In this document: positions 2,201 to 9,099 of the stretch, piece after piece
Layout of the letters: the number at the start of each line of letters is the position of its first letter
How positions within the stretch are numbered: the first letter of the stretch is position 1
Program-made: the position numbers and the translations under genes
DNA from: Hyphomonadaceae bacterium
GTDB taxonomy: Bacteria > Pseudomonadota > Alphaproteobacteria > Caulobacterales > Hyphomonadaceae
NCBI GenBank assembly: GCA_022844345.1
Contig: JALHLU010000003.1
Coordinates: 310,001 to 374,000 of the forward strand
DNA length: 64,000 nt
Reading direction: 5' to 3'
Notes under the pieces: model-generated
What the model was told of the DNA's origin: nothing
The model's input: the letters and a program-made list of their open reading frames with translations, nothing else
Databases searched by the model: none

Positions 2201-3832
2201 CTAGCAGGTCCCCTCGGGTGGATGGTTGACGTGAAAGCTGAGCACATTGCCGGTCTGCTGGCCCATGCTGTTTATCTCTGGCGAGCTGACATGGCAGATG
2301 TCGATCCATTGCGCGACGCCGAACGCCAAGGAGCCCTGCGCGTCATTGCCGATGGTGTACGCGAACGCAGTCCCATCGAACTCGCCATAGAAGCCGTTGC
2401 CGGCCAGCGGCCCGTTGAGAACCTGGCCTGAAACCTCGCCATAGGGCGAGACGGTGACTTGCACCTGGAACCCGCCGTCATCCACCCACGTCCCAGACAG
2501 GATCGGATAATTGCTGGTGTCGGGCGGCGGCAGCGGCGGAGGGGGTGGAGGCGGAGGCGACGGTGGATTGTAGACCGGATCATCGTTGACGGCCGGCCCA
2601 TTCGACGCTGGCTGGAATTGTTGCTGCGGGCCTGACGATGGGCCCATCGACGCCGCGGCGATGCCGCCAATCGCCACGACAGCGACGCCAGCCATGATGG
2701 CGACCTTCGCCGGCGTCATGTTGCTGAAGAAGTCCGCAAAGGCGTTGGAGCCCGGAGGTCTTGGCGCAGGCTGCGGATAAGGCTGGGTGGAGGGGCCAGG
2801 TTGAGGGGCCGGCCCCGGAGCTGCATAGGGGGCCGGACCCGGCTGCGGGCCTGGAGCATGTCCGGAGAGCGCGGCGTCCAGGTCGGCCCGGTATTGCAGG
2901 GCGGATTGCTGACGCTGGCGCGGATTGTTGGAGAGGCCGCGCTCGATCAGCTTGTCGATGGCGGGCGGCACGTCGCTGCGGCCGCCGCTGGGCGGCTGCC
3001 AGTGGCCCTTGGGCACGACGCCGATCAGCAGTTCGTAGAACATCACTGATAGCGAATAGAAATCCGCCGATGTCTGCGCAGCTTCGGGCGCCGTGATCTG
3101 TTCGGGCGACATGTATTCCAGCGTGCCGAGACTGGTCGCGCCCGTGTCTGACATGCCGCCGGCGCGCGCAATGCCGAAATCGAGGATCTTGAGCCGGGCG
3201 TCGTGATCGTTTGGCTCGCCCATGAGTATGATGTTCTCGGGCTTGAGGTCTCGGTGGATGACGCCCTGCGCGTGCGCCGCGCCAAGGCCGGACAGGACTT
3301 CGCGGATCACGTTGGCGGCCGTGGTCATCGAGCATTCGCTGCCCTGGCGCATCTGCTTCTGCATCCAGGCGCGCAGGCTGCCGCCCTCGAGCATTTCCAT
3401 GGTGAGGAATGGCAGGCCCTTGACCTCGCCCACATCGTAGACGGCGACGACGTTGGGATGGCGGATGTCGCGCGCGAGCACGCCTTCGCGGATAAGGCGC
3501 CTGACCGCGTCCTTGCCGCCAAGACGGTCGCCGCGGATGAGCTTCAGCGCGACATCGCGCTGGGTGACAGGATCATGGACGCGATAGACGACGCCCATGC
3601 CGCCGCGGCCTATTTCGGCGACAACGCGGTACCTGTCGGCGAACATCTCGTCTGCCTTGAGGTCGAGCGGCGACTTGCCGTCTGACTCGGGCTTTGGCCG
3701 CCCCAGCGCGGGGTCGATCGTGTGGAGGCCGTCGAGGGCCGTTTCGCCGGCCGTTGTAAGTGGCTTGCCGCATGCCTCGCAGAAACGCGCCGTGTCGATG
3801 TTGTTGGCGCCACAGCTTCTGCAAGCAATCAT
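2201..3832 (-). CDS. Zinc-ribbon Ser/Thr protein kinase with C-terminal beta-rich domain
   Basis: This is a 543-residue Hanks-type kinase. An N-terminal zinc ribbon has Cys4, 7, 18 and 21. The kinase domain runs from about residue 68 to 325 with all key residues intact: Gly loop GRGGMG (75-80), Lys97, HRD with Asp195, DFG with Asp218, and SPEQ in the activation segment. A Pro-rich linker follows, then one membrane helix (about 376-396), another Pro-rich run and a beta-rich C-terminal domain (about 444-543) that probably lies in the periplasm. It is the last gene of a five-gene operon and overlaps the preceding kinase by 4 bp. Its kinase domain is a close paralogue of that neighbour. Targets are unknown; the FHA-like protein of the same operon is the obvious phospho-binding partner. 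Confidence 0.88.
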   Translation of the reverse strand: MIACRSCGANNIDTARFCEACGKPLTTAGETALDGLHTIDPALGRPKPESDGKSPLDLKADEMFADRYRVVAEIGRGGMGVVYRVHDPVTQRDVALKLIRGDRLGGKDAVRRLIREGVLARDIRHPNVVAVYDVGEVKGLPFLTMEMLEGGSLRAWMQKQMRQGSECSMTTAANVIREVLSGLGAAHAQGVIHRDLKPENIILMGEPNDHDARLKILDFGIARAGGMSDTGATSLGTLEYMSPEQITAPEAAQTSADFYSLSVMFYELLIGVVPKGHWQPPSGGRSDVPPAIDKLIERGLSNNPRQRQQSALQYRADLDAALSGHAPGPQPGPAPYAAPGPAPQPGPSTQPYPQPAPRPPGSNAFADFFSNMTPAKVAIMAGVAVVAIGGIAAASMGPSSGPQQQFQPASNGPAVNDDPVYNPPSPPPPPPPPLPPPDTSNYPILSGTWVDDGGFQVQVTVSPYGEVSGQVLNGPLAGNGFYGEFDGTAFAYTIGNDAQGSLAFGVAQWIDICHVSSPEINSMGQQTGNVLSFHVNHPPEGTC

Positions 3833-5412
3833 CGTGGGCTTCCCTGCATCGGGTCTGGTCCGAAGGGATTCGGGCCGGGTGTACCCCGGCTCGACATCAG
3901 CGGACCGGCAAGCGCGAATGCTTTCCCGAATTCGGCTTTGTGGCCAAGATCATGAATGCGGCGGGCTGTCACGGCTATCGATGGCGCGATCATGCCCAGG
4001 AGCGCAACGACCGACAGCATCGGCACAAAGACCGGATAGAGATCATAAGGGCCGGCAAGTTCGGCGGACAGCTCTGAATCGGCAGCAATGGCGATGAAGA
4101 AGAGCACAACGCCGCCGATGTTGACGGACCAGTATTCCTTCACCGATGCGCGGCCGGCGCCGCTTGCGTATTTGCGCGTAAAGCCATCCCAGAACAGCCT
4201 GAACACGTTCTCGCTGGGCGGACCGGCGCCCTGATGCGGTGCGGGTTGCTGTGGGGCGTTGGGCGACGGACCTGGGGCGGGGCCAGGCCTGAAGCCAGAA
4301 GGAGCGTTCGAGCCCTGGCGTTCGCCGCCTAACGACCGGACGAGCGTGTCGTTGAGTTTCTGCAGCCAGGGGGGGATCGCCTGTTGGCCGAAGGCGCTGT
4401 TCATCGCGTCGACGAGGGCGCGGCTGTATTCGGAAACGCTTTGCGGACGTTGGCGCGGATTGTTGGAGAGGCCGCGCTCGATCAGCTTGTCGATCGACGG
4501 CGGCACGTCGCTGCGCCCGGCGCTGGGCGGCTGCCAGTGGCCCTGTGGGACCACGCCGACCAGAAGCTCGTAGAACATTACCGACAGCGAATAGAGATCT
4601 GCCGACGGCAAGGCGGCGTCTGGCGCGGTGATCTGCTCCGGCGCCATATAGCCGCGTGTGCCGAGGCTGGTGGCGCCGGTGTCCCCTGCTCCGGCGGCGC
4701 GCGCGACGCCGAAATCGAGGATCTTGAGCGCGGCCCCGCGTTCGGAAGGCTCGCTGACCAGCATGACGTTCTCGGGCTTGAGGTCGCGGTGGACGACGCC
4801 AGCGCGGTGGGCGGCATCAAGGCCCGACAGAATCTCAGCGATGATGTTGGCGGCGGCCATCATCGAACACTCGGTGGACGATGCGAGGCGGCGGCGGTTC
4901 CAGGCGCGCAGGCTCTGGCCGCTCAGAAATTCCATCGACATATAGGGATGGCCGTCGACCTCTCCCACATCGTAGACGGCGACCACGTTCGGGTGGCGGA
5001 TATCGCGCGAGGTGATGCCCTCGCGAATGAGGCGGTTGACAGCGTCCTTGCCCGCGAGGCGATCGGCGCGGATCAGCTTCAGCGCAACATCCCGTTCGGT
5101 CAGCTTGTCGCCAGCGCGATAGACGACGCCCATGCCGCCCTCGCCGATAACATTCTTCACTTCATAACGGCCGGCGAAGATGTCGCCCGGCGCCATGGCG
5201 CGCTGCGAAGGCTTCTTCGGCGCATGCGTGTCCGCACGGTCCATGCCGTCCATCGTGTGGAGCGCGGAGAGGTCCGGGCCTGGCGGGGGCGAGGGCGGAG
5301 CAGCGGCTTCCGGCTCGACGAGGCTTTTGCCCAGCTGACGGAGCGCCTGGCCGCACTCCCCGCAGAAGCGCGCATCAGCGCTGACCGGGCTCGCGCAGTT
5401 TGGGCAGTTCAT
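3829..5412 (-). CDS. Zinc-ribbon Ser/Thr protein kinase fused to a DUF805 membrane domain
   Basis: The 527-residue protein starts with a zinc ribbon (Cys3, 6, 17, 20). An intact kinase domain follows at about 83-335: GEGGMG at 90-95, Lys112, catalytic Asp210, DFG Asp233, and APEQ. After a Pro-rich linker comes a DUF805-like membrane domain (about 402-495), recognised from FWDGFTRK, RASVKEYW and the pair PSIAVTARRIHDLG. DUF805 proteins are usually small separate membrane proteins, so the fusion is noteworthy. The gene overlaps its neighbours by 4 bp on both sides (3829-3832 and 5409-5412), so translation is probably coupled. Sequence shared with the next kinase, including identical DNA stretches, points to tandem duplication. 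Confidence 0.88.
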   Translation of the reverse strand: MNCPNCASPVSADARFCGECGQALRQLGKSLVEPEAAAPPSPPPGPDLSALHTMDGMDRADTHAPKKPSQRAMAPGDIFAGRYEVKNVIGEGGMGVVYRAGDKLTERDVALKLIRADRLAGKDAVNRLIREGITSRDIRHPNVVAVYDVGEVDGHPYMSMEFLSGQSLRAWNRRRLASSTECSMMAAANIIAEILSGLDAAHRAGVVHRDLKPENVMLVSEPSERGAALKILDFGVARAAGAGDTGATSLGTRGYMAPEQITAPDAALPSADLYSLSVMFYELLVGVVPQGHWQPPSAGRSDVPPSIDKLIERGLSNNPRQRPQSVSEYSRALVDAMNSAFGQQAIPPWLQKLNDTLVRSLGGERQGSNAPSGFRPGPAPGPSPNAPQQPAPHQGAGPPSENVFRLFWDGFTRKYASGAGRASVKEYWSVNIGGVVLFFIAIAADSELSAELAGPYDLYPVFVPMLSVVALLGMIAPSIAVTARRIHDLGHKAEFGKAFALAGPLMSSRGTPGPNPFGPDPMQGSPR

Positions 5413-8435: not shown

Positions 8436-8478
8436 CGTATCGGCTCCGGATGGAGAATGCTGTGAGTGCGCAGGCGGA

Positions 8479-9099
8479 TCAGATCTTGGGCGGCTGGGTC
8501 CACTTTTTCTCTGAGACCCAGATGTAGATCGTGTAGCCGATCACAAAGATGCAGATGAGCGAGGGGATAGGGTTCTGCGTGATGATCGCGCCGACCTGAT
8601 CGAGCTTGCTGAGTTGGACGCCGGCGCCGTCGAGCGTGCGGAAGGTGCCGATGATGGCGCCGACCAGCGTGAACAACGAAAACAGGAAGGCTGCGATTCC
8701 CGAGATCATCTTGACCAGGCCGACAGGCTCCTTCTTTGACGGCGCGCCGGCGGCCGCGGCCGCCTCGGCCTTCTCGCGTTCGACAAGTTCCTGATCGTAG
8801 GTCTCGCCGCGCTTCATGGCAGCCTCGCGGGCCTTGTGGTCGACCTTCATGAAATCCGGCGCGGCGTCCTTACGGACGCTTGCCTGCTGCGCGGACGTCA
8901 GGTTGGTCGCGCGACGGCGCATGTGGATGAAGACGGTCGAGGCGAGCCAGATCGCCGCGAAGCCGACCGCGATCCACATGAGGTATGTGCCTGGAATGCC
9001 GAGCACGTCCCACTCGCCGGCCATGGCGCCTTCAAGAGTGATTTCGGAGCCGGCGCCGGGCGCTCCAGCGAGTGGCGGCGGCGTTTCTGGTGTCTGCAT
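8479..9099 (-). CDS. Three-helix membrane protein, first gene of the SPFH/kinase operon
   Basis: I do not recognise the family with confidence. The 206-residue protein has a Pro/Gly-rich start and three membrane helices at about 36-59, 132-153 and 177-195. A charged cytoplasm-like segment lies between the first two, with an Ala-rich helix near 111-120. The last two helices and the short loop between them (LVGAIIGTFRTLDG) weakly recall MotA/TolQ/ExbB channel proteins, but this is not strong enough to name it. It lies 43 bp upstream of the SPFH gene on the same strand, so it is probably the membrane anchor or a channel component of that operon. Confidence 0.72.
   Translation of the reverse strand: MQTPETPPPLAGAPGAGSEITLEGAMAGEWDVLGIPGTYLMWIAVGFAAIWLASTVFIHMRRRATNLTSAQQASVRKDAAPDFMKVDHKAREAAMKRGETYDQELVEREKAEAAAAAGAPSKKEPVGLVKMISGIAAFLFSLFTLVGAIIGTFRTLDGAGVQLSKLDQVGAIITQNPIPSLICIFVIGYTIYIWVSEKKWTQPPKI

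Follow-up and report, generated by a model that had tools for sequence, protein, structure and literature searches.

What do five tightly packed genes, encoding two zinc-ribbon kinases, a scaffold-like protein, a putative phosphothreonine reader and a small membrane protein, do in an alphaproteobacterium? The question is raised by a 64,000-nucleotide stretch of a Hyphomonadaceae genome (assembly GCA_022844345.1, contig JALHLU010000003.1, positions 310,001 to 374,000), hereafter the window, on whose minus strand these genes, named A to E, occupy positions 9099-2201. Comparison of the sequences establishes a conserved operon, a shared promoter and a matching pattern of presence among genomes. 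By a narrow preference over all other readings taken together, the operon is interpreted here as a sigma-induced membrane phospho-signalling module, in which a receptor kinase would recruit an FHA protein to an SPFH-like scaffold. The gene set is apparently an undescribed signalling system.

A conserved operon, present in the window in reduced form

The first-pass annotation of this DNA, made from the letters alone, described a five-gene operon; re-measurement returned the five minus-strand open reading frames (ORFs) at the same places, with gaps of 43, 12, -4 and -4 bp. Protein A (9099-8479, 206 residues) belongs to no known family, and its description as a three-helix membrane protein agrees with three membrane-like stretches found by hydropathy. 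Protein B (8435-6594, 613 residues) consists of an SPFH-like part (residues 32-179), a long charged middle and a C-terminal zinc ribbon (residues 590-612). Protein C (6581-5409, 390 residues) contains N-terminal zinc-ribbon cysteines (residues 14-56), an ApaG/Ig-like domain (58-170) and an FHA domain (243-373). In D (5412-3829, 527 residues), a zinc ribbon is followed by a Ser/Thr kinase domain (residues 83-337) and a DUF805 membrane domain (415-519), and in E (3832-2201, 543 residues) by a kinase domain (residues 68-275), a membrane helix (approximately 372-398) and an outer domain. Both kinases were said to be membrane-bound, and hydropathy indeed places two membrane-like stretches in D and one in E; B and C have none. 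The cysteines of the claimed zinc ribbons are present at the C-terminal end of B and at the N-terminal ends of C, D and E. Among the Pfam zinc-ribbon matches only Zn_Ribbon_1 of E passes its curated cut-off (26.1 vs 25), and the ribbons of C, with zero Pfam matches, were read from conserved cysteine pairs. The DUF805 domain, the avidin-like nature of the outer domain of E and the usual sixth gene of the locus were absent from the annotation.

The loci of all 34 family genomes bearing C were read with stop-to-stop frames and profiles of the parts. The C profile found its target in 34 of 105 family genomes, and the B profile in the identical 34 plus G010, where B is a remnant of about 75 residues (an earlier B search had given 13 of 61 genomes, window genome counted). 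All 34 also have A (two of them with a split contig), and the order A-B-C-kinase is kept on one strand in 30 loci, which is more than chance would give. The exceptions are two genomes in which the locus is split over contigs (G007, G386) and two in which C is relocated and adjoins a sigma factor gene (G352 and G349; L056, L057). In the window's genus the operon always lies between mmsB and pgsA wherever both flanks are visible; pgsA adjoins the operon in 6/7 loci, and the seventh (G011) stops at a contig end. Judged from this co-occurrence and gene order, the five genes are one operon and one functional unit, as had been claimed, and in the window genome the unit stands in reduced form: most relatives add a protease gene and many a sigma factor/kinase pair. 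The presence of two kinases, taken at first as a standard part, proved to be an exception (5/34 loci).

Conservation of the order across Caulobacterales and beyond, which had been envisaged, was not borne out, as C is confined to about a third of the family genomes and is rare outside. With approximately six best candidates per genome scored, C was found in 1/289 genomes of the class sample, namely the window genome itself, and in 2/299 of the phylum sample, both inside the family. Among named public genomes scanned with C, 23 loci were obtained, 17 of which belong to the 34 family genomes; the other six come from a Parvularculaceae bin (L047), three Planctomycetota/Pirellulaceae-labelled bins (L039, L050, L052) and two unlabelled sources (L051, L053). 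The neighbours of L050 carry DUF1501, PSCyt2 and PSD1, which are typical of planctomycetes. A search of the phylum of L050 with five candidates per genome scored found C in 4/343 genomes, centre counted; within these short loci, B and C neighbour each other in all four, with a kinase adjoining in three (L079, L080, L082).

An ECF sigma factor, its partner kinase and a shared promoter

In 24 of the 34 genomes, a gene for an extracytoplasmic function (ECF) sigma factor, S (Sigma70_ECF, TIGR02999), and a kinase gene, X, lie beside the operon. In nine of the other ten, S is on another contig; the window genome (G000:C2) is one of these, and its S and X genes overlap (L165). Ten of the 71 genomes without C were tested for S: nine have none, and in the tenth, G010, both S and X are fragmented. 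G010 thus combines a decayed operon with a decayed S/X pair on another contig (L171:6574-7317), a joint loss of both modules. The window genome also has a second TIGR02999 sigma factor (L166:6501-7067; G000:C3:51513), whose counterpart in G008 (L168) adjoins a kinase.

Region 2.2 of S reads STGD or similar, versus DAED of canonical ECF factors. The window genome has SLSTGD, and among 34 aligned S rows (several genomes twice) 32 fit SL[SA][TS][GS]D, L047 has SLTTGD and L052 deviates. ECF43 factors without DAED are said to need phosphorylation, according to the accessible text of two papers (PMC8999054, PMC13147305), the second of which gives about 16% of ECF43 members as retaining negative charge at the DAED position. 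An ECF43 factor of Hyphomonas neptunium is described, in the portion of PMC8999054 available, as activated by a kinase. Since S has Ser/Thr in place of DAED and an adjoining Hanks kinase gene, it is classified by sequence as ECF43-like; its TIGR02999 match is over the cut-off, a model that may be broader than ECF43.

An ECF-type promoter, TGACCCG-N15-GCGCTTA, is located at 9408-9380 (minus), approximately 280 bp 5' of the A start codon, and is the sole copy in the window; a sigma-70 promoter scan of the region found 0 sites with 0.9 expected. The promoter was counted over the 24 loci with S beside the operon, one per genome, in the spacer that separates S from A (from C in G352 and G349). The pattern TGAMC-N18-CGCC occurs in 22/24 spacers (shuffled mean 0.06, maximum 1/24; L027 and L069 are without it) and TGACC-N18-CGCC in 16/24. 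The form TGAMCSG-N14..16-GCGCC has 27 sites in 39 loci (685 kb) versus 3 in one shuffle, and 16 of them lie within about 85 bases 5' of A. In G352 a promoter precedes both A and the relocated C, and C of G349 has a near copy. The window's genus uses GCGCTT in place of GCGCCT, and TGASCCGTTT...CGCTTAC is found 160-300 bases 5' of A in 6/6 of its loci, the surrounding DNA being diverged. Searched genome-wide with at most one mismatch, the genus form is present in 7/7 genomes with S and 0/8 others (G010, where S is fragmented; G020, which has the operon and no detected S; six with neither), at 20 sites versus 2 for a control pattern. Taken together, operon, S and promoter were mostly gained or lost together in the genomes tested, and S may well recognise the operon promoter.

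The 20 genus sites also outline a small regulon. The gene downstream is A at six of them and a lipoprotein-like gene (412-429 codons) at another six; three stand before a gene of 134-143 codons, and five are other or unclear. The lipoprotein-like gene (about 420 codons; L180, G000:C1:249949) is in six genomes of the genus and is distantly matched in the Hyphomonas set (best E 3.5e-5). The GCGCCT form occurs at 4-7 sites per genome in the 16 Hyphomonas/Henriciella genomes that have both operon and S, and at 0-2 in four others (control 0-3). Twenty of its 84 sites, chosen by eye as similar to those of the operon, were examined: for 11 an ORF begins 27-36 bases downstream, six fall within a longer ORF on one strand or the other, and two are 112-150 bases away from a start. 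Pfam gave zero matches at E<=0.01 for six regulon proteins; several members look, by eye, like lipoproteins or small membrane proteins.

Some small genes near the locus touch this subject. Pfam-less small membrane-protein-like genes were seen at L160:183-686, at L060:13270-13776 and in the sigma-A interval of L061 and L062, and in L028, L061 and L062 an ECF promoter site precedes the place of such a gene. In L162 (G388, minus) a 101-residue protein with zinc-ribbon-like cysteine pairs stands behind an ECF promoter site; its basic C-terminal end somewhat resembles that of the protease found in most relatives.

The sigma pair raises the idea that the system wards off predators or competing cells: as for the Xanthomonas ECF43 pair EcfK/PknS, the pair would sense an attacker and the operon would respond. 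The pair here is of the same kind and its regulon is small and dedicated, yet no secretion genes were recognised in the regulon ORFs inspected, most of which were not searched against families, and of the two ECF43 responses that have been characterised one concerns polymyxin and the other amoebae (PMC8999054, accessible text), so that the stimulus is not transferable from one to another. This explanation is regarded as improbable.

A putative receptor kinase with an avidin-like outer domain

D and E both match Pkinase (E 3e-46 and 1e-43), and the catalytic HRD-N and DFG motifs are intact in both; by sequence, D and E are Hanks-type Ser/Thr kinases. The C-terminal DUF805 domain of D is matched by Pfam at E 3e-10. 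The outer domain of E is more unusual. Its last 104 residues (2204-2515, minus), behind one hydrophobic helix, are predicted by AlphaFold2 to form an eight-strand barrel (mean predicted local distance difference test score, pLDDT, 93.1). Of the best 50 Foldseek rows, 48 are avidin-family by title (the titles of 6udb and 7knl are uninformative), the best having E 1.2e-3 and a TM-score of 0.62. In VIA-align the highest Z for the barrel is 11.4 (2.9 A across 96 residues), and wild-type streptavidin aligns with it at Z 10.8. A profile of 20 such domains, run against PDB sequences, retrieves avidin-family chains only among the best 60 of 87 rows, headed by a two-domain avidin (E 1.7e-6) and rhizavidin (5.9e-4), and the signature GxWx(N/D)xxG is common to the barrel and the avidin/streptavidin family. 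Model, structure comparison and profile thus agree on a predicted avidin barrel. Pfam avidin (PF01382) matches 2/20 members at E<=1 (best 0.0026), leaves the window protein unmatched and never reaches its curated cut-off, and the domain is therefore called avidin-like and not avidin.

The ligand is probably not biotin. Streptavidin residues N23 and S27 contact biotin; in the barrel domain the N23 position is Asp in at least 90% of sequences and the S27 position is variable, which makes biotin unlikely. Cys74, His75, His95, His98 and Cys104 are nearly invariant instead. The avidin-like domain is found on the kinase in 29/34 family genomes, and seven of these 29 have a second copy as a separate gene. 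Separate avidin-like genes between kinase and protease were seen at L041:12651-13148 (same contig as L073) and in L026, L064, L069, L072, L076 and L077; the translated protein shows, by eye, a lipoprotein-type signal (LTAC). To our knowledge, E would be the first receptor Ser/Thr kinase with an avidin-fold sensor; among the matches listed of a full-text literature search, none describes an avidin-like receptor kinase. A survey of bacterial avidins tells of protease fusions, and in its accessible text the word kinase is absent (PMC8033661).

A candidate phosphothreonine reader and a conserved threonine in the kinase linker

FHA domains bind phosphothreonine through conserved G-R, S and H residues. 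The FHA-like character of C, claimed initially, is upheld by fold model and conserved residues, although the Pfam match (E 0.0075) is below the cut-off. In the AlphaFold2 model (pLDDT 82.5) an ApaG/Ig-like domain precedes the FHA part, and VIA aligns residues 243-373 with Rad53, Chk2, EmbR, GarA and others (Z 7.3-8.7, root-mean-square deviation mostly 2-4 A). An FHA domain is the rank 1 Foldseek match of C (probability 1.00, E 5.7e-3), and the C profile gives weak FHA matches only against PDB sequences (E 0.5-1.2). In 18 diverse C sequences G272, R273, S305 and R306 are invariant and H308 is kept in at least 90%. Residues 243-373 of C are accordingly modelled as an FHA beta-sandwich with predicted phosphothreonine-binding residues.

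A candidate docking site for this domain is found in the kinases themselves. The linker between zinc ribbon and kinase domain is otherwise variable and keeps G[LMI]xT[ILVMP] in 34/43 kinases, with 0.9 expected from shuffled linkers. Eight of the nine kinases that miss the motif keep LxT followed by a hydrophobic residue or Pro (ALHTM, QLETI and similar), and the ninth, without any linker motif, is a second kinase in which DFG has become DFA. In the window, E has GLHTID (T38; 3713-3730, minus) and D the near variant ALHTMD (T53; 5248-5265, minus). We infer that the FHA domain of C may dock on this linker threonine.

Two second kinases of other loci appear pseudokinase-like: one (L022:10243-11766) has DFA for DFG and no linker motif, the other (L025:13694-15355) has lost the Asn of the HRD motif and has an irregular glycine loop.

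A papain-like protease as the usual sixth gene

In 31 of the 34 loci a gene for a papain-like protease lies 3' of the kinase. Pfam Peptidase_C1 matches two members examined (E 5e-18 and 4e-12), and Cys-His-Asn triad patterns are present in 38/40 protease genes, the misses being a fragment at the end of a contig (L030) and a copy that lacks the His pattern (L069). Two cysteine pairs stand just N-terminal of the peptidase part in 6/40 proteases, a rough count that may cross start codons. A family-wide search found the protease at E<1e-50 in 31 genomes, all within the 34 with C, and weaker matches only (1e-24 to 1e-15) in ten other genomes. The protein is without evident export signal. In most relatives the protease is the probable output of the module. 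A 330-residue ORF of L021 was also considered as the protease and was rejected.

The three loci without the gene are those of the window genome, of G008, its nearest relative by B (92%), and of G011, where the contig stops at the kinase. Window positions 1903-2107, which are mostly E-pgsA spacer, match at 76% over 210 columns the DNA that separates pgsA from the second protease gene in G004, and this match suggests that the window site once had the protease genes and lost them. A search for protease remnants in the window gap gave a match no better than that of a control stretch. In G010 (L031:3573-3967) the interval from mmsB to pgsA holds the start of B and, next to it, a protease gene end (E 2e-11 to 2e-10).

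A protease beside a kinase could also be read as an anti-phage or self-killing device, in which the kinase would sense infection and unleash the protease as effector. D and E match the PADLOC models PD-T4-6 and mad6 strongly, and presence and loss of the locus are patchy. However, the PADLOC matches lie chiefly over the generic kinase domain and were not taken as evidence, the operon of the genus occupies, where both flanks are visible, one constant place and not a variable island, sigma control appears dedicated, and the window genome lives without the protease. Such a role is considered very doubtful.

A probable SPFH-like scaffold and the comparison with membrane repair

Protein B of the window matches Pfam Band_7 with E 1.9e-5 (25.2 bits versus a cut-off of 23.6). 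Its profile, compared with PDB sequences, returned only designed proteins, Rab8, ribosomal proteins and other chance-like matches. Of the SPFH identity first assigned to B, the match over cut-off stands, and since support across the family is weak the assignment is reduced to likely.

If B is an SPFH protein, a Psp/YdjI-like membrane repair system has to be weighed, in which B and A would protect or remodel the membrane, kinases and FHA protein would regulate assembly, and the protease would be accessory. YdjI presumably carries a zinc ribbon matching that of B. The analogy with YdjI, already drawn in the first-pass annotation, is supported: the accessible part of PMC8581546 describes, for YdjI/YdjG/YdjH-PspA of Bacillus subtilis, an SPFH protein with membrane partners, which the combination of B, its ribbon and a small membrane protein resembles. 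S likewise resembles a stress-linked sigma group (PMC8999054, accessible text), several regulon members look by eye like lipoproteins or small membrane proteins, and pgsA, a phospholipid gene, is the neighbour of the operon in 6/7 loci of the genus. The five genes differ from the Bacillus system in having a receptor kinase, an FHA protein and mostly a protease, and no Pfam match to PspA or ESCRT-III was found among them, which speaks against Psp membership. Moreover, a kinase and an FHA protein are present wherever B is intact, B, C and kinase persist together in distant genomes, and the protease accompanies them in 31/34 loci. Repair as the primary function is rather unlikely, more probable all the same than defence against phages or predators.

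A working model and the evidence against it

In the signalling module favoured here, envelope stress or a ligand would activate X, which would phosphorylate S, and S would turn on the operon together with a few lipoprotein and membrane genes. A and B would build a membrane platform. The barrel of E would bind its ligand, probably not biotin, and E would phosphorylate itself and D at the linker threonine, where the FHA domain of C could dock, the zinc ribbons helping to hold the parts together. The recruited complex would then control the papain-like protease in most relatives. As the protease is missing in the window genome, the output there would be another target, or would run via the DUF805-type kinase D. 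The more specific proposal, that an avidin-fold receptor kinase binds a small non-biotin ligand outside the membrane, phosphorylates its own linker threonine, thereby brings the FHA adaptor to the SPFH-like platform and gates a papain-like protease in the cytoplasm, all under ECF43-type induction and hence with two kinase layers in series (expression and activation), is tentative, and as a whole it is less probable than the general module.

Several findings weigh against this interpretation. Binding, phosphorylation, recognition of the promoter by S and the output are all inferred, and the proposed output is absent exactly in the window genome. Band_7 is detected at E<=0.01 in only 1/12 B proteins, and the alignment of the B profile with 20 SPFH segments (hhalign) is colinear and not significant (E 0.08). 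All Foldseek matches of the barrel and of C have E > 1e-3; in the profile search only three PDB sequences reach E<=0.001, the best as a sum of two weak domains (0.23, 0.29); and the Z values of the FHA part of C are in the middling range of the tool. The locus kinase is without the outer barrel in 5/34 genomes (L023, L078, L058-L060), and in L053 the order is A-B-C-protease, no kinase being seen between C and protease. Contacts between zinc ribbons could replace binding of the FHA domain to the kinase. On the side of regulation, G020 has the operon and S was not detected there, a strict promoter pattern matches 16/23 loci with S beside the operon and misses seven, the single promoter site of G011 lies away from its operon, and the picked GCGCCT-form sites that fall inside ORFs or far from starts indicate that part of them are chance. 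Finally, the linker-motif shuffle and the promoter controls ignore relatedness.

Relation to known systems

The pair of S and X resembles the ECF43/Hanks kinase pairs EcfP-PknT and EcfK-PknS in combining a TIGR02999 sigma factor without DAED with an adjoining kinase gene; it differs in being tied, by promoter and co-occurrence, to an SPFH-like/FHA/kinase/protease operon. TerY-P triads and the loci of von Willebrand factor A (vWA) proteins, kinases and PP2C phosphatases share zinc-ribbon kinases and phosphosignalling (PMC7159879, accessible text). As had been noted at the outset, neither PP2C nor vWA is among the Pfam matches of the five genes, and TerY-P identity was rejected on that ground. 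Archaeal ESCRT loci come near in another way: in the available text of PMC10936438, some clades combine a Ser/Thr kinase with an FHA domain, another has SPFH, coiled coil and zinc ribbon, and Ig-like domains occur. There, however, FHA and SPFH are in separate clades and neither an avidin-like domain nor papain is mentioned in that text, and Vps4 and ESCRT-III are unmatched in the five genes here. From avidin and streptavidin, whose fold and signature it shares, the E barrel is set apart by its position on a receptor kinase, by Asp for N23, by the unconserved S27 and by its own Cys/His set.

No description of the SPFH/FHA/zinc-ribbon/kinase set was found in the open-access literature searched, which covered few subscription papers; the initial statement that this exact gene set is undescribed agrees with that search. 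The parts are known domains, the sigma pair is of a known kind, and kinase-FHA phosphosignalling in general is already known; what is new is the avidin-like receptor kinase and its link to an SPFH-like scaffold and a protease. If the interpretation is true, the locus would represent a new type of bacterial signalling module, its single operon uniting a kinase, a reader of phosphothreonine, a scaffold at the membrane and a protease, and a fold known until now for biotin binding would serve as the sensor. The ECF43-like sigma factor of Hyphomonadaceae would also gain a concrete small target regulon and a promoter, testable in cultured Hyphomonas or Henriciella.

The 3' end of the operon

A hairpin with 13 pairs that resembles a terminator is located at 1985-1953 (minus), approximately 215 bp 3' of the E stop codon, and precedes the end of the convergent pgsA-like gene (1275-1928). 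Terminator-like sites in the region number 6, with a shuffle mean of 5.7, and this hairpin has the longest stem among them.

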